Positions 5,826 through 46,853 of a stretch of 64,000 nucleotides of DNA are shown here, piece by piece. Every line of letters begins with the position of its first letter. Position 1 is the stretch's first letter. The notes under the pieces were generated by a model, which was given only the letters and a program-made list of their open reading frames with translations, did no database searches and was not told the DNA's origin. A program made the translations under genes and the position numbers. Origin of the DNA: Ligilactobacillus cholophilus (lineage in GTDB: Bacteria > Bacillota > Bacilli > Lactobacillales > Lactobacillaceae); NCBI RefSeq assembly GCF_030389495.1, contig NZ_CP127832.1:1488001-1552000 (forward strand), given 5' to 3'.

Positions 5826-5863
5826 ATATTTATGAATTTATAAATCGAAATGAGGATGTATTG

Positions 5864-26912: not shown

Positions 26913-27649
26913 TGGAAAAAATATCTGTTATTTTACCTGTATTCAATTCTGAAAAATCTTTAAAAGAATCTATTAAGTCTGTATTGAATCAAACGTATTC
27001 TGATATCGAATTAATTATTATTGATGATGGTTCAACCGATTATTCGGTGAAATTAATTAATCAGTTTATGATTAATGATCCTAGAATTAATTTATTAATT
27101 AATAAGCGGAATATGGGAGTTAGCTTTTCGAGAAATCGTGGCATAGAAAATGCTACTGGTAGGTATATTGCTTTTATTGATGCAGATGATAAATGGGATA
27201 CAGATAAATTAGAAAATCAAATGAACTATATTATCAAAAATAAAGTTCAGTGGGTATTTTCCAATTATCGGTATATTAGCCAAAAAAAGAATTATGTTGT
27301 AAGCAGAAATTCAGGAAAATATGATTATCAAGCTATGCTTGCAAATGGAAATCCAATTGGACTATTAACTTGTTTAATTAATATTCAATTAATTGGAGAA
27401 ACTAGATTTAAGAATAAACACCACGAAGATTATATTTTTTGGTTAGAAATTGCTAAAAAGGGTTATTGTGCATTCAATACAGGAGATACTTTAGCCACGT
27501 ATTCAGCACTTATTAATGGTATTTCAAGTAATAAATTAAAGTCCTTCTTTTGGACTTTTAATGTATACCTACATGAATGTAAGAATTTAAAAGAAGCAAT
27601 CAAATTACAAATTAATTATGTGAAAAATTATTTTGTAAGAAAAGAATGA
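26912..27649 (+). CDS. GT2 glycosyltransferase
   Basis: A 245-residue family 2 transferase with VILPVFNSEKSLKESI, IDDGSTDYS, MGVSFSRNRGIENATG and FIDADDKWDTDKL (DXD). The short length is typical of EPS GT2 enzymes adding the second or third sugar. The ATG at 26912 overlaps the priming gene's stop and has GGAG 7 bases before it; the longer frame from 26867 overlaps coding sequence. Sugar specificity is not visible. Confidence 0.9.
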   Translation: MEKISVILPVFNSEKSLKESIKSVLNQTYSDIELIIIDDGSTDYSVKLINQFMINDPRINLLINKRNMGVSFSRNRGIENATGRYIAFIDADDKWDTDKLENQMNYIIKNKVQWVFSNYRYISQKKNYVVSRNSGKYDYQAMLANGNPIGLLTCLINIQLIGETRFKNKHHEDYIFWLEIAKKGYCAFNTGDTLATYSALINGISSNKLKSFFWTFNVYLHECKNLKEAIKLQINYVKNYFVRKE

Positions 27650-27656
27650 GGAAATG

Positions 27657-28748: not shown

Positions 28749-29883
28749 TAGGGACATAAGAGATTTTGCCAAAATGTGTTTAGGATATTTTTATAAAGTT
28801 AAATACTTTTGGATGCAACGGTTTGGACATGAAATTGATTTATCAGTAGCTGAAGCAACTAAAATTGTCAGTAATTTAGATATAGAACAAAATAGTTCAA
28901 TCAAAGCTAATAATAAAATCAATAAGGTTTTTGATTTAATGATTGTTATTCCTGCATATAATTGTGAAAACTCAATTGAAAAATGTATTGATTCTGTTAT
29001 TGATCAAAAAACAACCTATAAGATTGAAACAGTTATTGTAAATGATGGATCAACTGATAATACAGCCAAAATTTTAGAAAAATACCAAAATAAAGATAAT
29101 ATAAGAATTATTACGCAATCAAATCAAGGCTTTTCTGGAGCTAGAAACACAGCACTTCAAAATATTACTGGAAAGTATATATTTTTCCTAGATTCAGATG
29201 ACTATATTCCATCCAATACTGCGATGCAAGACCTATTAGATTTGGGAATCGAAAATGATGCAGATATTGTAGAAGGTGCAGCTTTCTCATTCTATTATGA
29301 TAATGGCAAGATAAAGAAAAATCGTGATATGGTTCATGCATATGAAGGCAAAGTCCATACATCAACAGATATGATGGGATATCCTTGGGGAAAAATTTAT
29401 AAAGCAGAATTATTTAAAGATATTAAATTCCCTGATTCTTTGTGGTTTGAAGATACAATTATAAGTTTATTACTCTATCCAGAAACAACTAAAAAATTTA
29501 TTAGTAATAAGTTAGTTTATGCGTATCAAGTTAATTTTGAAGGTATTTCACATACGTTTAAAGGTAAGGAAAAAACAATTGATACATATCTGGTTACTGA
29601 TTTAATTATTAAAGAGTTATCCAAAAGAAATTTAATCAACATAGAAACGGAACGATTATTTTTAAATCAGATGGCTATGAATTATTGCAGATTAAAAGGG
29701 TTATCAAGCAAGATAAATGATGCAGTAATAGTTTTAAGTATTAATTTATATCAAAAATATTTTCAAAGGGAATCAGAAAATAAGTTATTAACTAAAAAAC
29801 AGACAGACTTAAAGAATGCAATTAAGAAGAACGACATAAAAAGAATAAATGCATTATTAAATTGTTGGAATTATCTAAGATAA
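28741..29883 (+). CDS. GT2 glycosyltransferase with N-terminal extension
   Basis: A 380-residue protein. About 60 residues precede a standard GT2 domain (MIVIPAYNCENSIEKCIDSVI; VNDGSTDNT; GFSGARNTAL; FFLDSDDYIPS, the DXD), and a C-terminal region of about 150 residues (YPWGKIYKAELF; FEDTIISLLLYP) follows as in CpsI/EpsJ-like enzymes. The start overlaps the previous gene. The basic N-terminal segment (YFYKVKYFWMQRFG) may lie on the membrane. Sugar specificity unknown. Confidence 0.88.
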   Translation: MINRDIRDFAKMCLGYFYKVKYFWMQRFGHEIDLSVAEATKIVSNLDIEQNSSIKANNKINKVFDLMIVIPAYNCENSIEKCIDSVIDQKTTYKIETVIVNDGSTDNTAKILEKYQNKDNIRIITQSNQGFSGARNTALQNITGKYIFFLDSDDYIPSNTAMQDLLDLGIENDADIVEGAAFSFYYDNGKIKKNRDMVHAYEGKVHTSTDMMGYPWGKIYKAELFKDIKFPDSLWFEDTIISLLLYPETTKKFISNKLVYAYQVNFEGISHTFKGKEKTIDTYLVTDLIIKELSKRNLINIETERLFLNQMAMNYCRLKGLSSKINDAVIVLSINLYQKYFQRESENKLLTKKQTDLKNAIKKNDIKRINALLNCWNYLR

Positions 29884-29909
29884 AAAATAATTGAATGGAG
29901 AGATAAAAG

Positions 29910-31013
29910 ATGGCAATATATTTATGGCTGATTGCTTTTATATTGGGGGCATCACCTTTACAAAAACAATATAAAAAAATATATCTGACATTATGTTTGT
30001 TTTTTATTTGGATTCTAATTGCATTTAGATCGTATTTCATTGGAAATGATACACTAACATATGTCGGATCATTTTCTGCACTTGCTAATACTTCACTTTC
30101 AACATATGGAAATAATTTTTTTTCAATTTTATTTTCAAAGAATAGATTTGAATATGGATATGTTGTTTTAAATAAAATTATATATTTTTTTTCAAAAAAT
30201 CCACGTTGGCTTTTAATTGTTTCTGCTACGATTATTGTGATTCTTTTAGGATATATATTATATAAATACTGTGAAGATTCATCTTTAGCACTTATCATAT
30301 TTGTAACCATGGGATTTATGTCTGGTTCAATGTCACAAATTCGACAATATATCGCATGGGCAATTTGTATATTTTCAATTAAATATATAATAAAGAATAA
30401 TTTTGTTAAATACTTAATAACAATTATAATAGCAATGTTATTTCATATCTCTGCAGTTATTTTTTTTCCATTGTATTGGATTTCAAAATTGAAGTTTAAT
30501 TTTCTTAAATGTTTTTCATTTTCAATAATTGTTATGCCAATATTTATATATTTTACACAATTTTCAAATTTAGTGGGTTCAATAATTAGTTCCTATGATA
30601 ATTATGATGGACAAATTGCTAATAATGGGACCACAGGTTATTTATCTATTACAATTAATTTAATCACATTTATTTTATTATTATTATTAGCAGTATATTT
30701 ATATAAAAATCAAAATATACTAAATAATCAAATAATAAACCTATCTTTATGGATGCTGTTTTGTGGATGTCTTGTTATGATATTATCATACAAATTTAGT
30801 CAATTTACTCGGTTATCAACTTATTTTACTTGTGCAATTATGTTTTTATTTCCAAATGGATTAAATCAATTAAAAAGCACAGAATTAAAAAATATAGTGA
30901 AGATTTTATTAATTTCATTTATGATTTTATATTTTGTCATCATTAACACTTTAAAACCTTTATGGACTTGCATAGTCCCATATCATTTTATGACATCATG
31001 GTGGGGGTATTAG
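29910..31013 (+). CDS. wzy: EpsG-type polysaccharide polymerase (Wzy)
   Basis: A 367-residue protein with about ten membrane segments, of the EpsG family: LIAFRSYFIGNDTLTY near residues 35-50 (the conserved RS..GNDT.Y pattern), FEYGYVVLNKIIYFFSKNPRWLLI, and MSQIRQYIAWAICIFSIKYI are diagnostic. It polymerises repeat units outside the membrane. AGAG-type ribosome binding sites precede the ATG, and the next gene begins 2 bases after the stop. The polymerase at 19-20 kb is of a different type. Confidence 0.92.
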   Translation: MAIYLWLIAFILGASPLQKQYKKIYLTLCLFFIWILIAFRSYFIGNDTLTYVGSFSALANTSLSTYGNNFFSILFSKNRFEYGYVVLNKIIYFFSKNPRWLLIVSATIIVILLGYILYKYCEDSSLALIIFVTMGFMSGSMSQIRQYIAWAICIFSIKYIIKNNFVKYLITIIIAMLFHISAVIFFPLYWISKLKFNFLKCFSFSIIVMPIFIYFTQFSNLVGSIISSYDNYDGQIANNGTTGYLSITINLITFILLLLLAVYLYKNQNILNNQIINLSLWMLFCGCLVMILSYKFSQFTRLSTYFTCAIMFLFPNGLNQLKSTELKNIVKILLISFMILYFVIINTLKPLWTCIVPYHFMTSWWGY

Positions 31014-31014
31014 A

Positions 31015-31716
31015 ATGATTCCAAAGAAAATACACTATATATGGTTAGGTAATAAAGAAAAAAGTAAATTACATCAAAGAGTTTTAAACTCATGGCGAAA
31101 TAATGCTCCAGAATATGAAATAATTGAATGGAATGAATCTAACATTGGAGAAATACGTAATCAATTTTTAGATGATGCATTAAAACATCATGCTTATGCA
31201 TTTGCTTCTGATTATATTCGATTATATGTGCTTGAAAAATATGGTGGCATTTATATGGATTTAGATATGATATTAATTAAAAATCCTGATGAAGTTTTAA
31301 AAGATTATGATTTAGTTTTTAGTATTCAAGATGAAAATGTAATTTTTCAAACTTCATTTATTGCAGCTGAAGCACATCATAAATTTATTCAATCATGTTT
31401 AAATTATTATGATACATTAAAGTTTAATTCTGAGGGAATGCAACCAAATTCTGAGTTATTAACGCCACTATTATTGGAAAACTATTCATTTAGTAATAAA
31501 GATCAAACGCAAGTGATTAATAATACATGTGCATATAACTCAGAAATATTATTACAACCATCTTTTCATTCAGTAGCAATTCATATAGGAGAAACATCTT
31601 GGAAAACAGCAACTTTACATGATAAGCTGAGAATAATGTTACGTCAACATTTAACAAATCAGTTTGAAGCTGGAATATTTAAAGCTGTTCAGGATATTGC
31701 AAGGAAAATTTTATAA
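31015..31716 (+). CDS. GT32-type capsular polysaccharide glycosyltransferase
   Basis: A 233-residue transferase with a DXD sugar-binding domain: MIPKKIHYIWLGNKEKS start, YAFASDYIRLYVLEKYGGIYMDLDM (DLD at 82-84), and a C-terminal AIHIGETSWK. Enzymes of this group (OCH1-like) add mannosyl, glucosyl or galactosyl groups in capsule pathways. A GGGGGT site overlaps the end of wzy. Family assignment is secure; donor is not known. Confidence 0.92.
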   Translation: MIPKKIHYIWLGNKEKSKLHQRVLNSWRNNAPEYEIIEWNESNIGEIRNQFLDDALKHHAYAFASDYIRLYVLEKYGGIYMDLDMILIKNPDEVLKDYDLVFSIQDENVIFQTSFIAAEAHHKFIQSCLNYYDTLKFNSEGMQPNSELLTPLLLENYSFSNKDQTQVINNTCAYNSEILLQPSFHSVAIHIGETSWKTATLHDKLRIMLRQHLTNQFEAGIFKAVQDIARKIL

Positions 31717-31726
31717 GGAGAAATTA

Positions 31727-32764
31727 ATGAAAATAATATTAACTTATCCATTTTTAACCGGTAAAGGGGGAATGGAGACTGTAATAAAAAAGGTATTACA
31801 AAATACACCTGATTCAATTAAAATGAAATTATTTTTGCCTGGTGGAAGTGAAGATGAATCATGGCTAGACGGAATTAATAATGATAATGTTGAAATAATA
31901 TTACATAATCATAAAAATCCACTAGCAATGTTTCTCGATACTTTTAAATATATAAAAGCAGAAAAACCCAATAAAGTGATTACAATGAATAATTTACAAA
32001 TTTTACCAATCTTAATGGCAAAAAAATTTGTGAAAAATATGCAAGTAATATCATGGAATCATTTCTCCTTAAAATTTACAAAAGCAAATTTCTTATTAAA
32101 AAAATGTGATTCGTTTTTAGCAATTTCATCTGGAATATGTGATGAATTAAAAGAAATGAAGATTAATCCTGAAAAAATTCATTTAATTTATAATCCAATT
32201 GATAAGCCTACTAAATTAATTCCATTAGGGAATGAAAATACTAGACGTTTCATTTATGTTGGAAGAGTGCAATACAAAAAGCAAAAAAATTTAGCAGAAA
32301 TGTTTGAAATTTTAGGTCAATTAGAGTTTGATTTTCAACTTGATATTTATGGTGATGGTACGAAAGAAGAAGTAAATAAGTTAAAAAATTTAGCAAAAAT
32401 GTTGGGAATTAATTCTAAAATTAATTGGCATGGATGGCAAAAGAACGTGTGGAATTCAATAAAAAAAACAGATTTACTTCTTTTTACATCAAAATATGAA
32501 GGTTTTCCAATGGCAATTTTAGAAGCTATTGCTCATGGTATTCCAGTAATTTCGTCTAATTGTTCTAGTGGTCCTAAAGATATAGTTACTTCTTTAAATG
32601 GAAAATTGTATCAACTAGGAAATACAAGTGAAGCGGTTAAATTGTTAAATGATTTTTATAGTGGAAATTTGAAATTTGGCTCACAGGAAGAAATTGCAAA
32701 ATCTGTTGAAAAGTTTTATACAGAGAATTATATTAAAGATTATTTTAATATAATTCAAAAATAA
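31727..32764 (+). CDS. GT4 glycosyltransferase
   Basis: A 345-residue GT-B enzyme: MKIILTYPFLTGKGGMETVIKKV, RFIYVGRVQYKKQKNLAEMF, WHGWQKNVWNSIKK, EX7E in SKYEGFPMAILEAIAHGIPVIS. It is built like the GT4 at 18.1-19.2 kb (same GxGGxETV loop, GWQK phrase and length), so both may use the same donor, perhaps UDP-galactose; this is inference. ATG 31727 has AAGGAG 8 bases upstream; the longer frame from 31664 lies inside the GT32 gene. Confidence 0.92.
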   Translation: MKIILTYPFLTGKGGMETVIKKVLQNTPDSIKMKLFLPGGSEDESWLDGINNDNVEIILHNHKNPLAMFLDTFKYIKAEKPNKVITMNNLQILPILMAKKFVKNMQVISWNHFSLKFTKANFLLKKCDSFLAISSGICDELKEMKINPEKIHLIYNPIDKPTKLIPLGNENTRRFIYVGRVQYKKQKNLAEMFEILGQLEFDFQLDIYGDGTKEEVNKLKNLAKMLGINSKINWHGWQKNVWNSIKKTDLLLFTSKYEGFPMAILEAIAHGIPVISSNCSSGPKDIVTSLNGKLYQLGNTSEAVKLLNDFYSGNLKFGSQEEIAKSVEKFYTENYIKDYFNIIQK

Positions 32765-32776
32765 TTGGAGGATATA

Positions 32777-34312
32777 ATGGGAAAAAGTAGACTAGACAAC
32801 TCCATGATAAATTCATTTATTGGAGTAGGTACACAAATTTTAAATATGTTATTAGGATTTGTGTTGCAAGCAGTATTCATAAGAACTCTTGGAGCTACAT
32901 ATCTAGGTTTAAGAGGATTATACTCAAATATATTACAGGTATTATCTTTTACAGAATTAGGCATTGGAACGGCTGTAACTTTTTCTTTATATAAACCACT
33001 ATCAAGTGGAAATGAACAAAAAATTATTCAAATAATGAATTTCTTTCGAACAGCATATACTACGATTGGAATCATTATTGGAGTAATCGGAAGTTTATTT
33101 ATTCCATTAATTCCTTTATTAACACATAGCAATGTAAAAGGTGTGTATTTATATTACATTTTATTTTTAGCAAATACTGTTGTAAGTTATTTTTTAACAT
33201 ATAAACGTACGATATTAAATGCTGATCAATTGAATTATATTAATTTAAACAATGAATTACTCTTCAAAATATTACAAACAGTTATTCAAATTATTATATT
33301 GATTGTTTTCAAAAGTTTTTTGGGATTTTGTGTAATTCAAATTGTTTGTACAGTTGTTTCTAATATTGTAATTTCAAACAAAGTAAATAAATTATATCCT
33401 TATTTAAAAGGAAAAAATTTATTTAAACACAAATTACCTTCTAATGATTTGAAAGAGATACTTCATAATACTTTAGGAACATTAGGCTCAAAACTTGGAG
33501 ATATTGCAGTAAATGGAACAAACAGTGTATTAATAACATATTTCTGTAGTCTTTATCTTTCAGGTGTATTTTCAAACTATAACGTAATAATAAATAGCTT
33601 AGTAATTGTAATTGGGCAGGCATTTTATTCGATTACATCTAGTGTAGGTAATTTAATAGTAGAAATAGAAGATAAGAAATATCAATATGATATTTTCGAA
33701 AAAATTTTTTTCATTTCATTTTTATGTACATTTATTTGTTCAGTTGGTTATATTTCAGTTATTAATCCTTTTATTTCTCTATGGGTAGGAAGTAAATATC
33801 AACTAAGTTTTATAATTGCATTTATGTTGGGAATTAATCTTATATTGAATTCTTTTAGAAAAGCATTTTCAACATTTATTGCAGCATATGGTCTGTATGT
33901 AAAAGATGGGAAACGTGCTATTGTCGAAGCAATTGTAAATATTGTAAGCTCTTTAATTTACTTAATAGTTTTTAATATGGGGATAGCAGGTGTTGTTTTG
34001 GGAAATATAACAAGTAATATTTTAGTAAACTGGTATGAGCCATATATTATTTTTAAATATGGAATGCATCAAAATGAAAAATTATTAACTGTATTCACAA
34101 ATTTTGTAATTTATATGACTACATGTATAGCTTTTATGTTTGCTATGTATAAAATTGTATCGATTTTTAACATAAATATATTATTAGTAAATATTTTAGT
34201 TAAGGGACTAGTTGCGGTTACATTATCATTAATTGGATTTTATTTACTATTTAAAAATAATGAATACTTTAAATATACATTAGTAATATTAAAGAAATAC
34301 CTTGCTAAGTAG
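32777..34312 (+). CDS. wzx: Polysaccharide flippase (Wzx-type) of the second operon
   Basis: A 511-residue protein with about 14 membrane segments; MINSFIGVGTQILNMLLGFVLQAVFIRTLGATYLGLRGLYSN is the start typical of the lipopolysaccharide-biosynthesis flippase group in Streptococcus and Lactobacillus EPS operons. It carries undecaprenyl-linked repeat units outward. GGAGG lies 7 bases before ATG 32777. It is not close in sequence to the flippase at 12-13 kb. Confidence 0.92.
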   Translation: MGKSRLDNSMINSFIGVGTQILNMLLGFVLQAVFIRTLGATYLGLRGLYSNILQVLSFTELGIGTAVTFSLYKPLSSGNEQKIIQIMNFFRTAYTTIGIIIGVIGSLFIPLIPLLTHSNVKGVYLYYILFLANTVVSYFLTYKRTILNADQLNYINLNNELLFKILQTVIQIIILIVFKSFLGFCVIQIVCTVVSNIVISNKVNKLYPYLKGKNLFKHKLPSNDLKEILHNTLGTLGSKLGDIAVNGTNSVLITYFCSLYLSGVFSNYNVIINSLVIVIGQAFYSITSSVGNLIVEIEDKKYQYDIFEKIFFISFLCTFICSVGYISVINPFISLWVGSKYQLSFIIAFMLGINLILNSFRKAFSTFIAAYGLYVKDGKRAIVEAIVNIVSSLIYLIVFNMGIAGVVLGNITSNILVNWYEPYIIFKYGMHQNEKLLTVFTNFVIYMTTCIAFMFAMYKIVSIFNINILLVNILVKGLVAVTLSLIGFYLLFKNNEYFKYTLVILKKYLAK

Positions 34313-34337
34313 TTTTTATTAAGAAAGGAATTTTTTA

Positions 34338-35369
34338 ATGAAATCAGTTGCCATTATTATTCCATATTTTAGTAAAGAGATTCCCAGGGAATTTCCAGTA
34401 TTTTTAAAAAGTTGTAGCTATAATTCAACAATTACATGGATTCTATTTACAAACTGGCAAAAAAAATATATAAAACAATATAAAGTTCCAAAGAATGTGA
34501 AAATAAAAAAGATTAATTTGAAATTTATTGAAAACAAAGTTCAAAAAATATTAAAAAATAAAAATATTCGTATATGTTCTCCGTATAAATTATGTGATTA
34601 TAAACCTATGTATGGAGAATTATTCCAAGAGTACTTGAAAGAATTTGATTATTGGGGATATTCTGATATTGATGTAATTTATGGAGATTTGAGAAAATAT
34701 ATTAGTAAACCATTAAGTGAAAATTACGATAGAATTGGTACATTGGGTCATTTTACATTATTTCGTAATTGTATAAAAGTAAATCAAAGATACAGATTAC
34801 CTTATAAAATTAAAGGAAAAGAAGAATCTTTTGAAAATAATGTTGTAACTACACAAGAAATAATGTGTTTTGATGAACGTTGTGGAATAAATTTAATTTA
34901 TGATCAAAATAATTTTTCAACATATTCAAATCCTAATTTATTAGCTGAAATTCGTTGGACGCATTTGGATTTATTAATCACTGAAAAAAAATATGCATCT
35001 AAAGATTCAGTTTGGTTGTGGGAAAACGGAAAAACAATTTATTTTTATAAAAATAAGAATAAAATTTATTCAATAGAAAAAGGATACTTTCATTTTCAAA
35101 AAAGAAAACATTTCAACCAATTTATTAATTGTAGATCGCAGTATAATAAATTTATAATTGGGACAAATGGATATCAAATTATAAAAAGTAAACTTGATGT
35201 AAGCAATTTATTTAATTATAATAAATCACCATATCTTAAAAGATTAAGATATTTTTGCAGTATTATTTTTTTAACTCCTGCAATGACTAAGAAACATATT
35301 GGTAAACTTTATTTACCAATTAGATATTTAATTAATAGAACAATTAAGGAAAGAAAGTTTGATATTTAA
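34338..35369 (+). CDS. DUF6625-like glycosyltransferase
   Basis: A 343-residue protein beginning SVAIIIPYFSKEIPREFPVFLKSC, with the DXD-containing DYWGYSDIDVIYGDLRKYI near residue 100-120 and GTLGHFTLFRN after it. Proteins like this recur in EPS and capsule operons and are thought to be sugar transferases because of their GT-A-like first half and DID motif. The A/T-rich, Lys/Asn-rich C-terminal half has no recognised domain. The next gene's ATG follows immediately after the stop. Confidence 0.75.
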   Translation: MKSVAIIIPYFSKEIPREFPVFLKSCSYNSTITWILFTNWQKKYIKQYKVPKNVKIKKINLKFIENKVQKILKNKNIRICSPYKLCDYKPMYGELFQEYLKEFDYWGYSDIDVIYGDLRKYISKPLSENYDRIGTLGHFTLFRNCIKVNQRYRLPYKIKGKEESFENNVVTTQEIMCFDERCGINLIYDQNNFSTYSNPNLLAEIRWTHLDLLITEKKYASKDSVWLWENGKTIYFYKNKNKIYSIEKGYFHFQKRKHFNQFINCRSQYNKFIIGTNGYQIIKSKLDVSNLFNYNKSPYLKRLRYFCSIIFLTPAMTKKHIGKLYLPIRYLINRTIKERKFDI

Positions 35370-36446
35370 ATGAAAATAGGATTTTTAATTGCTAATTATA
35401 ATAATGGTGGAGGTACTGAAAGAGTAACATCTGTTTTAGCGAACGAATTGAGTAATCGTGGATATAAAATTAGTATTATTAGCTTTACAGATGGATTAAA
35501 TCCAACTTATCAAACAAATAAGAATATTTCTCTTTATTCTATTTATAATGAACAAAAACATGGAATTATGAAAAAATTTCATAATTTAAGAGCTTTACAT
35601 AAAATTGTAAAAATAAGTCAAATTGATATTTTAATTGTAGTAGATGTAAGATTATACATTTACGCACATTGGATAAAGTATATCAATCATTGCAAAATTA
35701 TCTCATGGGAACAATTTAATTATTATCGACCAACAGATAAATTAGGTAAAATATCACAATATTTAGCTGCTAGGTATTCAGATTACTTGGTAACGTTAAG
35801 CAAAAATGATTTAATTAATTATCAAAAGAATGTAAAAAAATTAGTACCTGCAACATACATATATAATCCTGTTACAATAAACGAAAATGGAATAACAGAT
35901 TTGGATAATAAGAAAATTATTGCAGTGGGAAGACTTGAAGAAGAGAAGGGCTTTGATCTATTAATTAAGAGTTGGAGCAAACTTGAAAATTTATTTCCTG
36001 ATTGGAAATTAGAAATTTTTGGCAAAGGAACTCGTAAAGATGAGTTGTTAAATTTGATATCAGAGTTAGATTTAAAAAATATAAAATTAAGAGGATATAG
36101 TAACAACATAGAAGATGAATATAAAAAAGCATCTTTTTTTGTTCTTTCATCAAGATATGAAGGCTTTGGCTTAGTTTTAACTGAAGCCCAGATGTATGGG
36201 CTTCCTTGTATTAGTTATGATATTACAGGTCCTAACGAAATAGTTGAAGACAATGTTAATGGATTTTTGGTAGATAGGTTTGATATAGATGAATTTGCAA
36301 AAAAAATGTCTGAACTAATGTGTGATCCTGAAAAATTAACTGTTTTTTCTCAAAATGCAAGAAAAAATATATATAGGTATGAGTTAAATTCAATAGTAAA
36401 AAAATGGGAAAAAGTATTTAAAGATATTTCCGAAATAAAAGAGTGA
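35370..36446 (+). CDS. GT4 glycosyltransferase
   Basis: A 358-residue GT-B enzyme of the GlcNAc/galactosyl-transferase kind: MKIGFLIANYNNGGGTERVTSVLANEL, IIAVGRLEEEKGFDLLI, EIFGKGTRKDEL, and EX7E in SRYEGFGLVLTEAQMYGLPCIS. It is the last gene of the operon; a terminator stem begins inside its final codons. There is no ribosome binding site gap from the preceding gene, so it is translated by coupling. Sugar specificity is unknown. Confidence 0.92.
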   Translation: MKIGFLIANYNNGGGTERVTSVLANELSNRGYKISIISFTDGLNPTYQTNKNISLYSIYNEQKHGIMKKFHNLRALHKIVKISQIDILIVVDVRLYIYAHWIKYINHCKIISWEQFNYYRPTDKLGKISQYLAARYSDYLVTLSKNDLINYQKNVKKLVPATYIYNPVTINENGITDLDNKKIIAVGRLEEEKGFDLLIKSWSKLENLFPDWKLEIFGKGTRKDELLNLISELDLKNIKLRGYSNNIEDEYKKASFFVLSSRYEGFGLVLTEAQMYGLPCISYDITGPNEIVEDNVNGFLVDRFDIDEFAKKMSELMCDPEKLTVFSQNARKNIYRYELNSIVKKWEKVFKDISEIKE

Positions 36447-37991: not shown

Positions 37992-38693
37992 CTACATATG
38001 TCCTTTGCTGTTATTACGTTTGAAAATCTTACCTAAAAATTTAATTTCCCGGGAAATTTCAATTTGAGAATATCCTTGATTGAGAAAAGTAAAATGTAAA
38101 ATTGTGTGGATAAAACTCTTAATCCATGAACGTGCGTCTTCTTTAAGGTGCTTACATTTATGTGAAGGAATTTCGAGTGTAAGATATTTAGTTTGTAAAT
38201 CTTTTATCAATTTATTTAAAGTATGATAAGTTGACCATGCTTTTTGGGCATTTCTTATCAGAACATAAGGATTAGTATTAAATTTTAACTTTAGCTCATT
38301 ATGTGTAACAGCTAATGCAGTTGAATCATCCAACATATGGATTTCTTTAATTTGGTTAAGAAATAAAATTGGTGAATTTGAATGATGCGAATTCCCTTGC
38401 ATGAAACAAATCAGTGTATTTTTACCAATTACAGGCATTTGAACTGTTGAATTTTCATATAACATCCATTTGATTGAATGAATAAGTACAGGTGGCAGTG
38501 TATGGTTACTGAAGTAATCATGTAGAAATTTATTCATTTTCAAGTCAGATATGTAATGCTGACCGTTATCCATAACAATTAAAGTATTTTTGTTAGGATC
38601 ATTAGATTGACAAGGTTCAACATAAACCACCTTTTTGAAATCGATTAGTGAATGATGGACCAAAATTGCATCTTTTTGCTCATCTATAAGCAT
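37992..38693 (-). CDS. comK: ComK-like competence transcription factor
   Basis: A 233-residue protein that can be aligned by eye with Bacillus ComK (192 residues): KWMLYENSTVQMPVIGKNTLICFMQ corresponds to the ComK stretch before IFLFPT, followed by SPILFLNQIKEIH (ComK GWISHVHVKEF), and the LKLKFNTNPYVLIRNAQKAWSTY segment (ComK MELPISYNSFENQVYRTAWL). The C-terminal 40 residues are extra. ComK activates late competence genes at AT boxes. I chose ATG 38693, with AAGGAG 8 bases upstream. It is divergent from the interrupted sigma factor gene. The assignment is by remembered family pattern and should be checked by profile search. Confidence 0.72.
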   Translation of the reverse strand: MLIDEQKDAILVHHSLIDFKKVVYVEPCQSNDPNKNTLIVMDNGQHYISDLKMNKFLHDYFSNHTLPPVLIHSIKWMLYENSTVQMPVIGKNTLICFMQGNSHHSNSPILFLNQIKEIHMLDDSTALAVTHNELKLKFNTNPYVLIRNAQKAWSTYHTLNKLIKDLQTKYLTLEIPSHKCKHLKEDARSWIKSFIHTILHFTFLNQGYSQIEISREIKFLGKIFKRNNSKGHM

Positions 38694-38897
38694 AAAAAAC
38701 ACTCCTTTATAAAAAATATTTAGTATTTTCCATCACTTGACCTATAAAGGAAAGTGATAGTATCAAGGGATTGAACATAGGAATTACCCCTCTATATATA
38801 AATACGCAATTTTTGCCCATTTTATAAATTAAATTTATTTTTTATGCTTTAAATATCATCTTGGCCAAGTTGAAATGATTTCAGAAAGATGATTTGA

Positions 38898-39428
38898 ATG
38901 GAAAAAATAACTAAAGAAAATGCCCAAGCAGGCTTTGCAGAACTATTAGACAATGAGGTTGTGATTTACGCTGTATTGAAAAAATTACATATTACGCGTA
39001 GCCATCCGCAATATGATGATTTTATATCAGAAGCACGATTGTTATATATAGAAGCGTATCAAAAAAATCAGCATTGCGATACCAATAATTTTAATTTTTA
39101 TTTTTCAAAGATTTATTGAGGACTATTAGATCGTTTACGTCAAAATAAGTATCACCAAGATCATCAATGCAATCCAGATGATAATGATAGTGAGTTTGAA
39201 TTTACTCTAGATAAGTTAGATTTACAGGAATTGATTGAAGAGAAAGAACTTATTGAAGAAATCCGTGAAGCGTGTAATCACAATGAGTGGTTAATTATTA
39301 AACAATATCTTGCAGGAAAGAATGTTACTGAAATTGCACGGCAATTAAATGTCTCACGAACAACGATTTATCAGCATCGCAAACGCCTTCGAAATAAGTT
39401 ATTACGAATTTTTGAAAATAAATCATAA
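38898..39428 (+). pseudogene. comX: Competence-type sigma factor (ComX/SigH-like) interrupted by in-frame TGA
   Basis: One continuous frame of 177 codons contains a single TGA at 39117-39119 (codon 74). Before it: EKITKENAQAGFAELLDNEV... NFYFSKIY; after it: GLLDRLRQNKYHQ, an acidic linker and a C-terminal sigma region 4 helix-turn-helix (NVTEIARQLNVSRTTIYQHRKRLRNKLL). In related sigma factors this place reads KIYW.LLD, so TGA replaces a TGG Trp codon. Residues before and after still look well conserved, so the change is recent, or the stop is read through, or it is a sequencing error. An intact protein of about 176 residues would direct RNA polymerase to competence promoters. The first 73 residues alone lack region 4. 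TGA serves as normal stop in neighbouring genes, so no recoded genetic code is implied. Confidence 0.82.
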
Positions 39429-39594: not shown

Positions 39595-39801
39595 ATGACA
39601 GTAGAATGGAAGAAAACATCAATTAGTGTAGTACAAGAAATGGCAAATGGGGATGAACGTAAACGCTCATTTAATGGATTGAATGAACAAGCAACGGATG
39701 ATCAAATCTCACAATTTGCAGAAGTTATCGGTAATCTTACTGGCGAACCAGTGATGCAAGTGGTTGTAAGTCGTGCTGAAACAATCAAAACAGAAGCATA
39801 A
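39595..39801 (+). CDS. DUF1659 family small protein
   Basis: A 68-residue acidic cytoplasmic protein (TVEWKKTSISVVQEMANGDERKRSFNGL...). It fits the DUF1659 pattern of short proteins usually encoded next to a DUF2922 gene, as here. Function is unknown. ATG 39595 is set by GGAGGA 8 bases upstream. It lies 166 bp after the sigma factor gene and 49 bp before its partner, the two forming a small operon. Confidence 0.8.
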   Translation: MTVEWKKTSISVVQEMANGDERKRSFNGLNEQATDDQISQFAEVIGNLTGEPVMQVVVSRAETIKTEA

Positions 39802-39850: not shown

Positions 39851-40093
39851 ATGAAAAAATTAGATTTAGGATTTCGCTCAGCAACAAAGAACACAACACA
39901 TCATTTACAATTAAAATATGTGAAAGATGAATTAGATGTTGATGTAATTAAAGAAGCAATGAATCAAATTGCAGAATTAGGAATTTTTGCAAATAAGAAC
40001 GGCGAAGCAATTTACGCTAAACCAGTTTCAGCTAGTTATGTAGATACAACTGAAGAAGTCTTATTTTCAGAAGATATGAATGAAAATGCATAG
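39851..40093 (+). CDS. DUF2922 family small protein
   Basis: An 80-residue protein (KKLDLGFRSATKNTTHHLQLKYVKDELDVDVIKEAMNQIAELGIF) with the DUF2922 layout: an early beta-strand pair, then a helix EAMNQIAELGIF, then a short C-terminal strand. Function is unknown. GGAGG precedes the ATG; a strong bidirectional terminator follows. Pairing with DUF1659 is a recurring arrangement in low-GC Gram-positives. Confidence 0.82.
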   Translation: MKKLDLGFRSATKNTTHHLQLKYVKDELDVDVIKEAMNQIAELGIFANKNGEAIYAKPVSASYVDTTEEVLFSEDMNENA

Positions 40094-40102
40094 GAAAGTA
40101 TA

Positions 40103-40140
40103 ATAAAAAGACGAGACATTTTGTCTCGTCTTTTTATTTT
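40103..40140. terminator. Bidirectional terminator
   Basis: A 14-bp stem AAAAAGACGAGACA/TGTCTCGTCTTTTT separates the DUF2922 gene from the convergent membrane protein gene. Confidence 0.9.
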
Positions 40141-41645
40141 CTTTCTAAAAGTAAATATTTATTAATATATTGGTCATTAATTTTTTGTTCATCAATTAAT
40201 CTATAGTTTTTATAAACAACCTTATTCCATTTATTTGCATTTTTATAATTTGAATCAATACAAATTACATATTTAACTTTTCTTTTTTTTATAATATTTA
40301 ATTGTGCATTAATAAAAGGCCTATATTCACCATCATGGTGCATATTCATTTTATTAAAATATTTAGTTGGAGGCATAATGCCTAAATAGTTGTACCAACC
40401 ACTATCTAACTCATTAAAATCTAAGACAGAAACATTTTTTGGATTTTTTTTCATTAAATTAGCAAATCTTACTTGATATGGAGTATAACCAAATAAATTA
40501 GAATTAAAAATACTAGGATTTTCTGTTATAATTCCTAAAAAAGTAAAAAATGATACAATTGGAATTAAAAAACTAGTTTTTATTCTATAATCTTTTAATT
40601 TTATTGCAAGCCAAGATAAAGAAAGCACTACAAAAGGAATAGCAAGTAATTGATAATAAGAATACATTATTCCAGCAATAGTTTCAACAGCCATATTGCA
40701 GAAAATCATAGATAAAAGAACTAATTTTGCGTTAGTTTGTTTTACTAGACTTGAACTGAAAATGAGTATATATGGAATTAAAATCACTAAAAGCCATATA
40801 ATTATATTTTGTCTTAAAAATGGTACTAAACTATGAGAAATAATAAAAAATAAATGTTTTAGAAAAGTTTCATTAGATAATCCGCCATATAAGTAGTTCC
40901 ATCCAAAATATCCCCAAACGAGATCGTTAAATGCATGATTAATAAGAAAATAACCAAAAACAAAAGCAGTAGGGAACATAAATCCTAAAAGACTATAATA
41001 AATCATTTTTTTAATTTCTATATAATCTTTTTGTTTTATTAAAATGAAAAAATTGCATAGATAAAATGCAAGCCAGGCACCTAAACATGTGTATTTAATC
41101 CAAAAAACAAATCCTACAGAAAATCCTAAAAATAAATATTGTTTTTTTGTTGCTTTATAATTATTATTGATAATCTTAAAAGTTAAATAAATTAAAATAA
41201 AAATAAATGAAAGGATAAATTCTTCTGCTTCTCCACCATTCATAAATGAATCATAATTTAATAAAATAAAGGGATAAATTAATGTGAGAATTAAAGACCA
41301 ATTTTTAGATTTTGAAACTAATAAAATAGTTTTATAAATAAATGTAACACTGATCCATAAAGCAATAGTTTCTAAAATAAAAATTCCAAAATAATTTGTT
41401 CCAATTTTAATTGGAGAAAAAATTGCATATAAAAAGAAAATTATAGGACCTTTGATATCCAATAAATCTTTATAAGGAATTAGTCCATGCATAATGCCTC
41501 GTCCAATTGTTAGATAAATCGAAGGATCTTCAGAAAAATTATATTTATATAACGGAGAAAAGTGTGAGCATAGTAATAATGCAAAACATGAAAAAATGTA
41601 TAAATAAATATAATGTCCATAATTTTTAAATATCTTTTTAATCAA
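40134..41645 (-). CDS. GT-C-like multi-pass membrane protein (glycosyltransferase 39-like)
   Basis: A 503-residue protein with about 11-12 membrane segments. The first extracytoplasmic loop has EDPSIYLTIGRGIMHGLIPYKDLLDIKGP, in the place where GT-C enzymes carry their catalytic acidic residue, and IGRGIMHGLIPYKD..D.KGP is seen in GT39/PMT-like bacterial proteins. It probably transfers a sugar from a polyprenyl-phosphate donor at the outer membrane face. Start is TTG 41645 with GAGGTGA upstream. The last 90 residues (VKYVICIDSNYKNANKW) are soluble. Acceptor is unknown. Confidence 0.75.
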   Translation of the reverse strand: MIKKIFKNYGHYIYLYIFSCFALLLCSHFSPLYKYNFSEDPSIYLTIGRGIMHGLIPYKDLLDIKGPIIFFLYAIFSPIKIGTNYFGIFILETIALWISVTFIYKTILLVSKSKNWSLILTLIYPFILLNYDSFMNGGEAEEFILSFIFILIYLTFKIINNNYKATKKQYLFLGFSVGFVFWIKYTCLGAWLAFYLCNFFILIKQKDYIEIKKMIYYSLLGFMFPTAFVFGYFLINHAFNDLVWGYFGWNYLYGGLSNETFLKHLFFIISHSLVPFLRQNIIIWLLVILIPYILIFSSSLVKQTNAKLVLLSMIFCNMAVETIAGIMYSYYQLLAIPFVVLSLSWLAIKLKDYRIKTSFLIPIVSFFTFLGIITENPSIFNSNLFGYTPYQVRFANLMKKNPKNVSVLDFNELDSGWYNYLGIMPPTKYFNKMNMHHDGEYRPFINAQLNIIKKRKVKYVICIDSNYKNANKWNKVVYKNYRLIDEQKINDQYINKYLLLERK

Positions 41646-41771
41646 CTAACTTCACCTCAATTTTTCAGTCAATTCCTATAATACAAAAAAATTTTAAAGT
41701 ATACTATGCTTTATTCCATATCATTAACAAATATTAAATTTAATTAGTATTGTTTCCGTGATTAATATATA

Positions 41772-41784
41772 TTGCACGATGCAA
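41772..41784. promoter_or_regulatory. Palindrome upstream of hdcP
   Basis: TTGCACGATGCAA is a 5-bp perfect inverted repeat with a 3-base centre, 7 bases before a TTGGCA that could be a -35 element. It is a candidate operator; no regulator is identified. Confidence 0.35.
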
Positions 41785-41896
41785 ATTTTCTTGGCAAAAA
41801 AGAGTATAAATTATTTTAATAAAATAAAACATTTTATAATAAAAATTGAAAGAGATATTTTGTTTTCTCCTAATTTTAGGAAAGGGAGTCATTTAA

Positions 41897-43360
41897 ATGA
41901 ATGACAAAGCAACAACTAAAAAAGATGCTGGTAAATTAGGCTTAATTGGTTTAATTGCATTAGCAGTTAGTGCAATGGTTGGTAGTGGGGTTTTTGATTT
42001 ACCAAAAAACATGTCACAGGTTGCAGGACTAGATGCCCAAGTTTTAGCATGGATCACTACAGGAATTGGAATATGGTTTATTGCTGAAATGTTTGTAATC
42101 TTAAGTGATGTTCATCCTGAATTAAAAGCCGGACTATACAAATATGGGGAAGTTGGTTTTGGTCCATTTGTTGGTTTCTTTACAGCATGGGGATATTTTG
42201 TTTGTGAATGTTTTGCTAATGTTGCTTATGCGGTATTAGTAATGAGTACACTTGACTACTTCTTCCCAGGTACATTTACCGGTGGTAGTAATTGGCCTTC
42301 AGTAATTGGAGCATCAATTATTACATGGTTAATAACTGCATTAGTTTTACGCGGAGTTGAAGTTTCAAGTACAGTACAAAAAGTTGCAACTGCAATTATG
42401 TTATCTGTTATGGTTATTTTTCTAGCAACTGTTGCTGTACATTTTAATCCACATACTTTTACTTTAAATGCTACTGCTACACATGCAGTAAGTTCTGTAA
42501 GTGATAAACCATTAGGAAGTGTCACTTCACAATTACTCAATACAATGATGATCACATTATGGCTATTTGGTGGTATTGAAGGAGCAGTTGTTATGTCTGG
42601 GAAAGCAAGAGATCCTAAACAAGTTCCAAAGGCAACAGTAATTGGATTTATTATTTGTTTAGCATTATTTGCTTTAACAGGAATTTTATCATTAGGTGCA
42701 TATTCATATGGCCAATTAGCAAATATGACATCACCATCAACAGCATATATTTTAACTTCATTATGGCATAACAATTTGGGACGTGACCTAATTACATTTG
42801 GCTTGTTAGTTGCGGTATTTTCAAGTTGGATTTCATGGGTTCAAATGTTATCAGAATTACCACAACATGCTGCTGAAGAAGATCATGCATTTCCACAAAT
42901 ATTTGCTAAAAAATCAAAAAGAAATGTCCCAATTGTATCTGTACTTGTAGCTACTGTAATTATGCAAATTATCATTATCTTTGCTCATTTTGATAATAAT
43001 GCATATCAAATGTTATTAACTATTACAGGTACAATGACGGTCGCACCATATATGGTAAGTGCAATGTACTTAATTAAAATTGGTGCTAAGAAAGATTTAT
43101 TCCCAGATAATACAAAGCATAAACGTGTTAACGGATTAATTATTGGAATTTTAGCATTTTTATATACAGTGATTATGGGGTTAGCTGCAGGAATTAAATA
43201 TATTGCAATTTCATTCATCGTATATGCTATCGGAATTCCAGTATATATTTGGGCAAGAAAAGAACAACATGAGAAAAAAATCTTTAATATTGGGGAGCTA
43301 ATATTTGCGATTATTATTGTAATCGTTGCTATAATCGGATTTTTTGTTCTAATAAAATAA
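41897..43360 (+). CDS. hdcP: Histidine/histamine antiporter
   Basis: A 487-residue APC-family transporter with about 12-13 membrane segments: LGLIGLIALAVSAMVGSGVFDLPKNMSQVAGL is the start typical of amino acid/amine exchangers; GIEGAVVMSGKARDPKQVPKAT follows in the middle. Next to a histidine decarboxylase gene it takes in histidine and expels histamine, and the exchange with decarboxylation generates proton motive force. AAAGGGAG precedes the ATG. Position, order and length match hdcP/hdcC of histamine-producing lactobacilli. Identity is by context plus family. Confidence 0.92.
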   Translation: MNDKATTKKDAGKLGLIGLIALAVSAMVGSGVFDLPKNMSQVAGLDAQVLAWITTGIGIWFIAEMFVILSDVHPELKAGLYKYGEVGFGPFVGFFTAWGYFVCECFANVAYAVLVMSTLDYFFPGTFTGGSNWPSVIGASIITWLITALVLRGVEVSSTVQKVATAIMLSVMVIFLATVAVHFNPHTFTLNATATHAVSSVSDKPLGSVTSQLLNTMMITLWLFGGIEGAVVMSGKARDPKQVPKATVIGFIICLALFALTGILSLGAYSYGQLANMTSPSTAYILTSLWHNNLGRDLITFGLLVAVFSSWISWVQMLSELPQHAAEEDHAFPQIFAKKSKRNVPIVSVLVATVIMQIIIIFAHFDNNAYQMLLTITGTMTVAPYMVSAMYLIKIGAKKDLFPDNTKHKRVNGLIIGILAFLYTVIMGLAAGIKYIAISFIVYAIGIPVYIWARKEQHEKKIFNIGELIFAIIIVIVAIIGFFVLIK

Positions 43361-43362
43361 TG

Positions 43363-43390
43363 TTGAAAACGTTTTCTTAAGGAATATAAT
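43363..43390 (+). promoter_or_regulatory. Promoter of hdcA
   Basis: TTGAAA, 16 bases, TATAAT. This near-consensus sigma-A promoter lies directly after the hdcP stop codon and 57 bases before the hdcA start, so hdcA is transcribed from its own promoter and not only by readthrough from hdcP. Confidence 0.8.
43364..43377. promoter_or_regulatory. CcpA-type cre site overlapping the hdcA -35 element
   Basis: TGAAAACGTTTTCT matches the catabolite response element consensus TGWNANCGNTNWCA at all but the last base, and contains the perfect palindrome GAAAACGTTTTC. It covers the -35 hexamer of the hdcA promoter, so CcpA-HPr(Ser-P) bound here would block transcription when sugar is plentiful. Binding is inferred from the motif. 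Confidence 0.65.
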
Positions 43391-43446
43391 ATAAGTAGGG
43401 AGAAAATAATTTATATCTTTTAATAAAAATGTGGGGGGTCTTTAAA

Positions 43447-44382
43447 ATGGCTAAAATAGATTTAACATTAAACAAACAAGGAATTGATAGAATTGCAATT
43501 AGTCCATATACAAAATATTCACGTGGATATATGGAACCTGGAAACATTGGTAATGGTTATGTAACAGGATTAAAGGTTGATGCAGGTGTACGAGACAAAT
43601 CAGGCGATGATGTCTTAGATGGAATCGTCTCATATGATCGTGCTGAAACTAAAAATGCATATATTGGTCAAATAAATATGACTACAGCTTCAAGTTTTAC
43701 AGGACCACAAGGCCATGTAATTGGATATGATATTTTAAGAAATCCAGAGGTGGATTCTGCTAAACCATTATTTACAGTTAAACAATGGGATGGTAGTAGT
43801 TTACCAATTTATGATGCAAAACCACTTCAAGATGCATTAGTAGAATATTTTGGAGTAGAAAAGGAAAGACGTCATTATCCTGCTCCAGGAAGTTTTATTG
43901 TATGTGCTAATAAAGGTGTTACAGCAGAACGTCCTAAGGAAGATCAACCATTAAAACCTGGACAAGGTTATGGAGTTTGGTCAGCAATTGCTATTTCTTT
44001 TGCTAAAGATCCAGAAAAGAATTCAAGCATGTTTATTGAAGATGCAGGAGTATGGGAAACTCCAAATGAAGATGAATTGTTAGAATTCTTAGATGGTAGA
44101 AGAAATGCCATTGCTAAATCTATTGCTGAATGTGGAGCGGATGCAGAAACTTCATTCGAAAGCTCATGGATTGGTTTTGCACATACAATGATGAAACCAG
44201 GACAAATTGGAAATGCAATAACAGTAGGACCATACTTCTCCTTACCAGTTGATTCTATTCCAAATGGTTCAATTTTGACACCAGATAAAGATATGGAAAT
44301 TATGGAACAACTATCCTTGCCTGAATGGCTTGATAAAATGCAATATGAATCACTTATAAAGAAATATAATGTTAAATATTAA
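43447..44382 (+). CDS. hdcA: Pyruvoyl-dependent histidine decarboxylase proenzyme
   Basis: A 311-residue proenzyme closely matching remembered HdcA of histamine-forming lactobacilli. It self-cleaves between Ser82 and Ser83 (TTASSFTG); the alpha chain then carries an N-terminal pyruvoyl group that decarboxylates histidine to histamine and CO2, using up a proton. Conserved stretches include YMEPGNIGNGYVTGLKVDAG, VSYDRAETKNAYIG, HYPAPGSFIVCANKG and ESSWIGFAHTM. I chose ATG 43447: the GGGGGTC site lies 9 bases upstream and the length then matches the family. Maturation needs the next gene product, HdcB. Confidence 0.98.
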   Translation: MAKIDLTLNKQGIDRIAISPYTKYSRGYMEPGNIGNGYVTGLKVDAGVRDKSGDDVLDGIVSYDRAETKNAYIGQINMTTASSFTGPQGHVIGYDILRNPEVDSAKPLFTVKQWDGSSLPIYDAKPLQDALVEYFGVEKERRHYPAPGSFIVCANKGVTAERPKEDQPLKPGQGYGVWSAIAISFAKDPEKNSSMFIEDAGVWETPNEDELLEFLDGRRNAIAKSIAECGADAETSFESSWIGFAHTMMKPGQIGNAITVGPYFSLPVDSIPNGSILTPDKDMEIMEQLSLPEWLDKMQYESLIKKYNVKY

Positions 44383-44399
44383 TTTTTGAGGTATTGTAT

Positions 44400-44858
44400 A
44401 TGAATGGTAATAGGATATTACAAGAGATACCAGATAAAATTAATCAAGTAATAGTTGATGTAGAAAATAATAAGCAAATTTTGTGTGCTATTGGTAGAAA
44501 TAAAATTTATTTAATTAAAGCTAACATCTTGCAAAATAAGAAAAGGGAACATATAGTTGATGTTGATTTTATAAGTGGTGTTCCAAATGGAAAATTAAAA
44601 ATCAAATTTGATAATGGTGAGATTTGGAATTTTACTAATATTATCAAAGGAAGAGTTTTTGATTTTAAACAAGAACTAATGCCTGGAAAAATTAATGAAG
44701 CAGGCTATGATAATACTATTCGTGGTGAATTTCCACAATTATTAGATTTGGATCATGCTGAAGAAATCGATAAATTAAGACGATATATGCAAAGTGGATT
44801 TATAAGTCATTATGAATATGATGATTGTAATCCAGTTTATCCCAAAGCAGGAAAATAA
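44400..44858 (+). CDS. hdcB: HdcB, maturation protein for histidine decarboxylase
   Basis: A 152-residue cytoplasmic protein encoded 17 bases after hdcA. HdcB converts the HdcA proenzyme to its active pyruvoyl form (established for the streptococcal system). Here the identity rests mainly on position in the hdcP-hdcA-hdcB-hisS order; the C-terminal FISHYEYDDCNP and the LMPGKINEAGYDNTIRGEFPQLLDL segment look like the family as I know it. ATG 44400 has GAGG 8 bases upstream; the TTG at 44394 is too close to it. Confidence 0.85.
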   Translation: MNGNRILQEIPDKINQVIVDVENNKQILCAIGRNKIYLIKANILQNKKREHIVDVDFISGVPNGKLKIKFDNGEIWNFTNIIKGRVFDFKQELMPGKINEAGYDNTIRGEFPQLLDLDHAEEIDKLRRYMQSGFISHYEYDDCNPVYPKAGK

Positions 44859-44884
44859 AAATAGTGAGCAAGTAAAAAGTATCT

Positions 44885-45130
44885 ATTGTAAATGACAGAG
44901 ATCCACAATTTGATGAGAAGTGGGATTTAGTACGTTACACGCTTGTGAATTGTTCAAATGAAAGTATTAAACGATTAGTTTGTTCCGCAGAGATGCGTTA
45001 TCATCTATAAGTTAGTTAGACTATCTTAATGAGGTAATAATCGTGAGGTTATTACAAAATGAGGTGGGACAGCGTTCGTTTATAACGCCCTCAAAAGTAT
45101 TTATAAATACTTTTGAGGGCGTTTTTTTAT
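44885..45130 (+). promoter_or_regulatory. T-box riboswitch (histidine) before hisS
   Basis: The 295-base gap between hdcB and hisS holds a T-box leader. The T-box core is AGGTGGGACAGCG (45062-45074); the antiterminator pairs GAGG (45061) with CCCTC (45088-45092), exclusive with a long terminator hairpin. The acceptor bulge reads UGGG, whose last base pairs with discriminator base C73, the base special to bacterial tRNA-His. A CAC (His) triplet at 44938-44940 lies in the expected specifier region. Uncharged tRNA-His would thus promote hisS transcription. Confidence 0.85.
45086..45128 (+). terminator. T-box-controlled terminator
   Basis: A 15-16 bp stem starting CGCCCTCAAAAGTATT and ending in the complementary GAGGGCG is followed by seven Ts. 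It stops transcription before hisS unless the T-box antiterminator forms. Confidence 0.92.
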
Positions 45131-45153
45131 AAATTTAGAAAGGAAGAAAAAAC

Positions 45154-46431
45154 ATGGAATATCAAAAACCAAAAGGAACTGTTGACATTTTACCTGGGCA
45201 ATCAGAAATATGGGAGAAAATTGAGCTTAATGCAAGAGAAACCTTTCATTTATATGGTTATCATGGAATTCGAACTCCAATTTTTGAAGATTATAACGTT
45301 TTTGCTAGAAATGTAGGAGATACATCAGATATTGTTACAAAAGAGATGTATGATTTTAATGATAAAGGTAATCGCCATATTGCTTTAAGGCCAGAGGGGA
45401 CGGCAGGAACTGTAAGAGCATATGTAGAAAATAAATTATATGGCCCAGAATATTCAAAACCATACAAAGTTTATTATATGGGACCAATGTTTAGATATGA
45501 GAGACCACAATCTGGAAGACAACGTCAGTTTAATCAAATTGGAGTAGAAGCTTTAAATACAGAATCACCACAAGTAGATGTAGAAGTAATTTCAATGGCA
45601 ATGAATTTATTTAAGAAGTTAGGCATTAAAAATATCAAATTAGTAATAAATTCTTTGGGCGATAGTGAATCAAGAGATAACTATCGTAAAGCATTGATTA
45701 ACTATCTTGAACCTTACTTTAATGAGCTAAGTGAAGATTCACAAAGTCGTTTATACAAAAATCCTTTGCGGGTACTAGATAGTAAAGATGAGAAGGATCA
45801 AGAAATAATAAAAAATGCGCCTTCTATACTTGACTATTTAAATGAATATTCGGCTGATTATTTTGAAAAAGTAAAAGAATTACTTACAGAACTAAATATT
45901 ACGTTTGAAGTTGATTATCGAATGGTACGAGGACTTGATTATTATACACATACTATTTTTGAAATAATGTCAGATTCTAATGCCTTCGGAAATAAATACA
46001 CTACTGTTTGTGCTGGTGGACGGTATAATGGGCTAATTTCACAATTAGGTGGTCCAGATGAAGGTGGTATTGGTTTTGGAATGGGAGTTGAACGGTTAAT
46101 TTTACTCTTAAATGAAGAAAATCCTGATTTTATAACCAATAATAAGATCGATTTATTTTTAGTATCTGCAGATAGTTTAGGTGATAATTTAGCATTCATA
46201 ATAGTAGACAAATTACGAAAAAAAGGAATTTATGCTGAAAAATCATATATAAATAGTAAAGTAAAAACTCAAATTAAAGAGGCAATTAGAAAAAATGCAA
46301 AGTATTATGCTGTAATTGGAAAAAATGAATGTGAAAGTAAAGCTATTGAAATAAAAGAATCTAATAAAGATAATGTAGAAAAAGTTAATATAGCGGAATT
46401 AGTTCAAAATCCCCATGATTTTCTGCATTAG
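45154..46431 (+). CDS. hisS: Histidyl-tRNA synthetase (hdc-linked)
   Basis: A 425-residue class II synthetase charging tRNA-His. Motif 2 is YKVYYMGPMFRYERPQSGRQ, the HisA box is RMVRGLDYYTHTIFEI, and motif 3 is GIGFGMGVERLILLL; an anticodon-binding domain ends the protein. hisS normally precedes aspS in lactobacilli; here it stands alone after hdcB, so it is probably a second, cluster-associated copy that senses or guards the histidine pool while HdcA consumes histidine. It is preceded by its own T-box. That it is a duplicate cannot be proved from this window. Confidence 0.97.
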   Translation: MEYQKPKGTVDILPGQSEIWEKIELNARETFHLYGYHGIRTPIFEDYNVFARNVGDTSDIVTKEMYDFNDKGNRHIALRPEGTAGTVRAYVENKLYGPEYSKPYKVYYMGPMFRYERPQSGRQRQFNQIGVEALNTESPQVDVEVISMAMNLFKKLGIKNIKLVINSLGDSESRDNYRKALINYLEPYFNELSEDSQSRLYKNPLRVLDSKDEKDQEIIKNAPSILDYLNEYSADYFEKVKELLTELNITFEVDYRMVRGLDYYTHTIFEIMSDSNAFGNKYTTVCAGGRYNGLISQLGGPDEGGIGFGMGVERLILLLNEENPDFITNNKIDLFLVSADSLGDNLAFIIVDKLRKKGIYAEKSYINSKVKTQIKEAIRKNAKYYAVIGKNECESKAIEIKESNKDNVEKVNIAELVQNPHDFLH

Positions 46432-46853
46432 AAAAGCCTTTTTTACAAAATGATTAAGTTTTTTACAATATTTTTAGATTTTGCAAAATCATTTTAATTT
46501 GATATCAATATTGATGCGTTATGATAGATAACATAGTCATCAAATGACTGTTTTATAAAATTTTCTTTTTTTAATGGTACCTATTGATCCTAAAAGAAGA
46601 GATAGCTCAAAAAACTACCTCTTCTTTTTTTGGCTCAAGAATAAGAAAAGTATTTATCTAAAAATAATTTAAAGATAACTATTTAAATTTAAATTAATAT
46701 AGTTCGTGATTTATTTAACTTTCTTATTATTATTTAAAAATATTTATTAAGATAAGTTTAAAAAACTTTAAATCGGATATTAATTTGGTTAAAATGGTTA
46801 CTTATCCGAGTAAAATGTAAAAGGTTGGAAATATTTATGAGGAGGATATAGAT
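46432..46853. other. 422-base gene-free interval after hisS
   Basis: This very A/T-rich stretch holds a terminator at 46592-46631 and a 7-bp hairpin TCGGATA...TATCCGA (46773-46809) just before the GGDEF-like gene. No open frame with a plausible start and ribosome binding site was found. A strong GAGGAGG site ends the interval. Confidence 0.6.
46592..46631 (+). terminator. Terminator downstream of hisS
   Basis: AAAAGAAGAG with an adjoining ATAG pairs with CTAC and CTCTTCTTTT across a 9-base loop; a T run follows. It lies 160 bases after the hisS stop. Confidence 0.75.

Follow-up and report, generated by a model that had tools for sequence, protein, structure and literature searches.

The competence sigma factor gene of Ligilactobacillus cholophilus, a sigH/comX-type gene on the plus strand at positions 38898–39428 of the 64,000-nucleotide stretch of DNA analyzed here (the window; contig NZ_CP127832.1), is interrupted by a single in-frame TGA. 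From the sequence, this is most likely a young strain-level nonsense allele by which this strain would have its competence regulon switched off. The nonsense mutation would end translation after 73 residues, and the truncated product, without any of region 4 or the later part of region 2, would be unable to guide RNA polymerase to the competence promoters and is presumably inactive. The late competence regulon (pilus, uptake channel, dprA, coiA, radC and comC), which is intact in the DNA, would then be expected to be silent in this strain. The event is probably a recent and ordinary strain-level loss of a switch, likely the master switch of DNA uptake.

The sigma factor gene and its alleles

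The gene translates to 176 residues with one internal stop and no frameshifts. The stop (39117–39119) occupies codon 74, a tryptophan position according to both the homologue alignment and a same-species genome, and separates an N-terminal half of 73 residues (38898–39116) from a C-terminal half carrying the region 4 helix-turn-helix (39120–39425). Translation confirmed the description in the first-pass annotation of two intact halves in the same frame parted by this TGA alone, and no other stop or indel was found across the 176 codons either by translation or by alignment with the same-species allele. Taken alone, the C-terminal half matches helix-turn-helix families in Pfam and scores 39.2 bits (E 5e-10) with the NCBIfam sigma70-ECF model TIGR02937, just below the cut-off of 42.9 bits, which the same-species orthologue exceeds (57.3 bits). 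The N-terminal half would by position form the first part of sigma region 2; searched alone in Pfam it yielded no sigma domain, and its identity as part of a sigma factor follows from homologues that align over both halves. In the same-species orthologue sigma-70 regions 2 and 4 lie in one protein, whereas in the window's gene the stop separates them. Restart of translation at an internal TTG (39231), which would give a region-4-only protein, was rejected, as no good ribosome-binding site is visible by eye upstream and the product would not be a working sigma factor.

Searching with the protein, X standing for the stop, gave hits in 37 of 60 genomes, one of which is the window's own. Thirty loci were fetched; setting aside the window's own leaves 29, of which 24 were aligned (L024 and L028–L031 were left out). 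Codon 74 encodes tryptophan in all 24 aligned homologues, some of which are close relatives of one another, and also in the same-species genome, which bears out the earlier expectation of a tryptophan at this position. That the stop lies exactly at a tryptophan codon is nevertheless a weaker argument than it sounds. Beyond its start codon, the intact allele can be turned into a stop by 108 different single substitutions, 19 of them transitions; since four of the 19 fall at tryptophan codons (six of the 19 yield TGA), a stop at a conserved tryptophan is unremarkable. An in-frame TAG was seen in a distant homologue (20% identical) from another genus of the family, at G034:C23:67664-68134.

The window belongs to a single-contig genome of 1,587,935 bases with a completeness of 100, and the one other genome of the species compared here is a metagenome-assembled genome (MAG) of an uncultured Ligilactobacillus species (locus L032, CALVCU010000015.1). 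The same-species label is attached to genome entry G061, while L032 lies in G060; we infer that the two entries represent one assembly. The stretch L172 of G060 carries a gene identical to the sigH gene of L032. This same-species orthologue is uninterrupted and has tryptophan at codon 74. As tryptophan is found in all 24 homologues and the gene is whole in the MAG, the stop is derived and strain-level. The two alleles differ at 16 of 528 bases, with nine synonymous, six missense and one nonsense difference and no indel, and their pN/pS ratio is 0.16, a value that comes from a single pair and may mostly reflect the period preceding the stop. The TGA allele is likely to be young or recently acquired, since its two halves are free of further lesions and purifying selection is still visible between the alleles. 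A long-decayed gene was rejected in view of the single lesion and the pN/pS ratio of 0.16; many other lesions in related strains, named earlier as the mark of such decay, were not seen in sigH in the one related genome examined.

The sigH locus diverges more from the MAG than the competence loci do. In the sigH region (36.4–40.1 kb), 200-base bins differ by 0.5 to 10%, whereas the differences amount to no more than about 0.5%, counting gaps, in stretches of 5.6–5.8 kb around dprA, comF and coiA, and pS does not exceed 0.010 in any comG or comE gene compared (comGC has three missense differences in 306 bases). The species thus has two haplotypes of the sigH region, with the stop on the window's.

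In-frame stops in constrained bacterial genes tend to be short-lived (PMC7918605). The present case resembles the stops treated in that study, with one stop only and a gene that is under constraint apart from it, but the large-scale set described there required a stop in at least two species, while here a single species is concerned and just one of its two genomes has the stop. A literature search on premature stops in competence sigma genes of lactobacilli found nothing; we make no claim that the allele is unreported.

Competence genes and their promoter box

The genes comGA to comGG, comEA, comEB, comEC, comFA, comFC, coiA, dprA, a second dprA-like gene, comC and radC are all open in this genome. 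ComGA and ComGB score above the family-model cut-offs and ComGC just under (67.6 vs 75 bits); comEC, dprA, coiA and radC are backed by family models, comFA by helicase domains, comFC by a phosphoribosyltransferase domain and comC by a match to the N-terminal prepilin peptidase domain, while comGD to comGG, comEA and comEB were named by operon position. Signs of a competence system lost long ago with general decay were not seen in this genome, the examined competence genes being all open. A one-base deletion is seen in the MAG's dprA (L083, about 3076), and the T run at the 5' end of its comGG is shortened (L074, about 6650); each may be real or an assembly fault. Unless these changes are assembly faults, the two genomes seem to have breaks in different competence genes.

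A common box, TTKCGTATnTA, stands upstream of comGA, comEA, coiA, dprA and the divergent neighbour of sigH (orfK), and comFA has a variant of it; a box of this type is carried by seven competence operons, comFA with the variant. An exact-pattern scan of the genome gave 14 sites compared with 18 for the reversed-pattern control, so the count is not enriched and the evidence for the box lies only in the position of the sites, not in their number. Eight of the 14 exact sites lie upstream of comGA, comEA, dprA, coiA, comC, radC, tag and orfK, seven of them near the gene start and the orfK site about 100 bases away; the remaining six have no such gene start downstream. The comC, radC and tag sites came from the genome scan and were not in the set that defined the box. 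The sister species (G009) also has it before comGA, comEA and dprA, and with one mismatch before coiA; in L. aviarius (G003) it is present before dprA and with one mismatch before comGA, and no box was found upstream of coiA.

These positions suggest that the box is read by the sigma factor encoded at the interrupted locus. Streptococcal ComX/SigX directs the late competence genes through a short box, the Cin-box TACGAATA. The putative role of the window's sigma factor is similar, namely control of late competence genes through a short box, but TTKCGTATnTA differs from the Cin-box. A closer counterpart in domain content is SigH of Latilactobacillus sakei, likewise a small sigma factor with regions 2 and 4 whose expected regulon comprises competence genes; the window's gene differs from it by the interrupting stop (PMC3364868). 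In L. sakei, overexpression of sigH is reported to raise the expression of comFA and comFC, comEA and comEC, the comG genes and comC, and overproduction of SigH to give no detectable transformation (PMC3364868). Competence in L. cholophilus is by analogy only a potential. Given that the competence genes are open, that their boxes are in place and that L. sakei SigH offers a precedent, the strain would seem to keep its regulon while the sigma factor is interrupted. The proposal in the first-pass annotation that this strain lost competence only recently is supported as far as sequence can support it: the same-species sigH is intact, no second lesion is present, and the examined competence genes and their boxes are whole.

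The neighbourhood of sigH and other strain differences

The gene neighbourhood of sigH is conserved in the genus. Downstream on the plus strand lie a DUF1659 gene (39595–39801, PF07872) and a DUF2922 gene (39851–40093, PF11148), which adjoin sigH in eight of nine Ligilactobacillus loci (8/12 related loci overall) but not in L038. This arrangement is as in L. salivarius (L040), whose locus is a different one from that of L. sakei according to PMC3364868.

On the minus strand lies the divergent neighbour orfK (37992–38702). An ORF of similar size is found at all seven loci inspected, one of them from the same species; sequence similarity was detected by tblastn in only two of the seven (L032, and L033 at E 3e-4), and orfK is 14–22% identical to its six positional counterparts outside the species. 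It has no match to a Pfam family. Tests gave no support for its identity with ComK: a PF06338 search of seven genomes gave one match, below the cut-off and elsewhere, and hhalign returned a probability of 0.2. The AlphaFold model of orfK is poor (pLDDT 62.9), and its best match among solved structures, a LytTR DNA-binding domain (E 1e-3), hints faintly at a LytTR-like fold. A competence-type box, TTGCGTATTTA, lies on the minus strand at 38799–38809, about 100 bases before the listed start of orfK. This box is present in the MAG too; with at most one mismatch allowed, it was found in none of the six relatives outside the species. As the box is so far from the gene and missing in these relatives, the case for orfK as a putative member of the competence regulon is weak. 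A 23-residue ORF, MFNPLILSLSFIGQVMENTKYFL (38707–38778, minus strand), starts 20 bases past the box and ends just before orfK, and is possibly a short leader or peptide gene.

Beyond the DUF2922 gene, about 6.3 kb (40138–46439) are missing from the MAG at this place, adjoining the sigH locus. They contain genes for an amino acid permease, a pyruvoyl histidine decarboxylase (PF02329), HdcB and a histidyl-tRNA synthetase-like protein, and thus a histamine island. On the other side, the glycosyltransferase-rich stretch 26867–36446 has no MAG ORF that is more than 85% identical in the stretch compared and has DNA matches of 65–67% in part; the DNA to its left differs by 2–3% from the MAG, well above the competence loci.

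Twenty-four window ORFs of at least 150 amino acids closely match MAG ORFs, and two of the 24 are the two pieces of a gene that the MAG has unbroken. This split gene (5861–7610) is of membrane type and has gained four bases, TATA, relative to a single 581-aa ORF in the MAG; its first half is weakly DUF6541-like, below the cut-off, and the gain is possibly a slippage switch. In addition, comparison with the MAG shows that a 14-base duplication has cut short a YigZ-like gene beside comFA (L113:1057-1332; G000:C1, about 173.6 kb). Since such sporadic gene interruptions are normal in this species, the ordinary reading of the sigH stop as strain variation is favoured.

Other readings of the stop, and what the allele means

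The preserved regulon would also fit a partly working sigma factor, and the alternative that survives best is a leaky allele, weak instead of null: tRNA-Trp with the anticodon CCA would misread UGA at a few percent, insert the wild-type tryptophan and supply a trickle of normal sigma factor. Low-level, unprogrammed misreading of this kind is plausible from the sequence. UGA readthrough in B. subtilis is reported to be 6% (PMC6316719, citing Lovett 1991), and the situation resembles the leaky decoding described there in its UGA, its tRNA-Trp(CCA) and the lack of a cognate suppressor. The single tRNA-Trp found in this genome has the anticodon CCA and the pair U11-A24, the same state as that created in E. 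coli tRNA-Trp by the Hirsh G24A change, which promotes UGA reading (PMC13092985). Moreover, the TGA stands for a tryptophan codon, so that misreading would restore the wild-type protein, and region 4 is still intact. Against this, A24 may be usual in this group, B. subtilis tRNA-Trp having it too; the anticodon stem of the tRNA has the normal 5 bp and not 4 bp; and an intact 3' half is equally expected of a young null allele. We give a leaky, still useful allele a small chance. Less probable is its extension, in which the TGA is a natural low-output setting of competence: misreading of UGA by the A24 tRNA-Trp would let rare cells pass a sigma threshold and turn the regulon on. Translational noise would then serve to bet-hedge competence, with TGG/TGA at codon 74 as a reversible dial between strains.

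A sequencing or assembly error at one base is a slightly poorer candidate still. It would explain why a single base is affected and why the species' only other copy reads tryptophan. However, the genome is complete in one contig, indels relative to the MAG are few in the compared stretches, and where a single-base indel splits a competence gene (dprA, comGG) it is the MAG that is affected. In the 16 bases 3' of the TGA, the window departs from the MAG at three more sites, which marks the window's sequence as a divergent haplotype, although this does not prove the TGA base itself.

Programmed and selected UGA readthrough that meters the dosage of the sigma factor deserves almost no credence, even though the stop lies exactly at a tryptophan codon between two intact halves: TGA is found at codon 74 neither in the MAG of the species nor in any of the 24 homologues, no tRNA with a UCA anticodon is among the 60 tRNA genes found (150 of 184 first-look candidates were scored, and all 60 were typed with ARAGORN), and the RNA 3' of the stop folds no better than shuffled sequences (z 0.10; 90 nt and 61 nt), giving no sign of a stimulatory structure. 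Of the two interpretations put forward in the first-pass annotation, recent loss of competence has the support of the sequence, while suppression of the stop as a means of metering finds no support. A recoded genome was likewise rejected, given standard stop use in the window (6 TGA, 11 TAG and 30 TAA in 47 ORFs of at least 200 amino acids from a mechanical ORF list) and the lack of a UCA tRNA among the 60. The earlier argument for the standard code, that neighbouring genes end with TGA, was loosely put, as the next gene (DUF1659) ends in TAA and only six of the 47 ORFs in TGA, but its conclusion stands.

A young nonsense allele that silences competence in one strain would be ordinary strain variation apart from its use as a natural case. 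It offers a clean example in which the regulon is whole, its sigma factor is interrupted and an uninterrupted allele is present in the same species. This lets one ask how long the uptake machinery outlasts the loss of its switch, and whether the leakiness of UGA in low-GC Gram-positive bacteria keeps such alleles partly alive.
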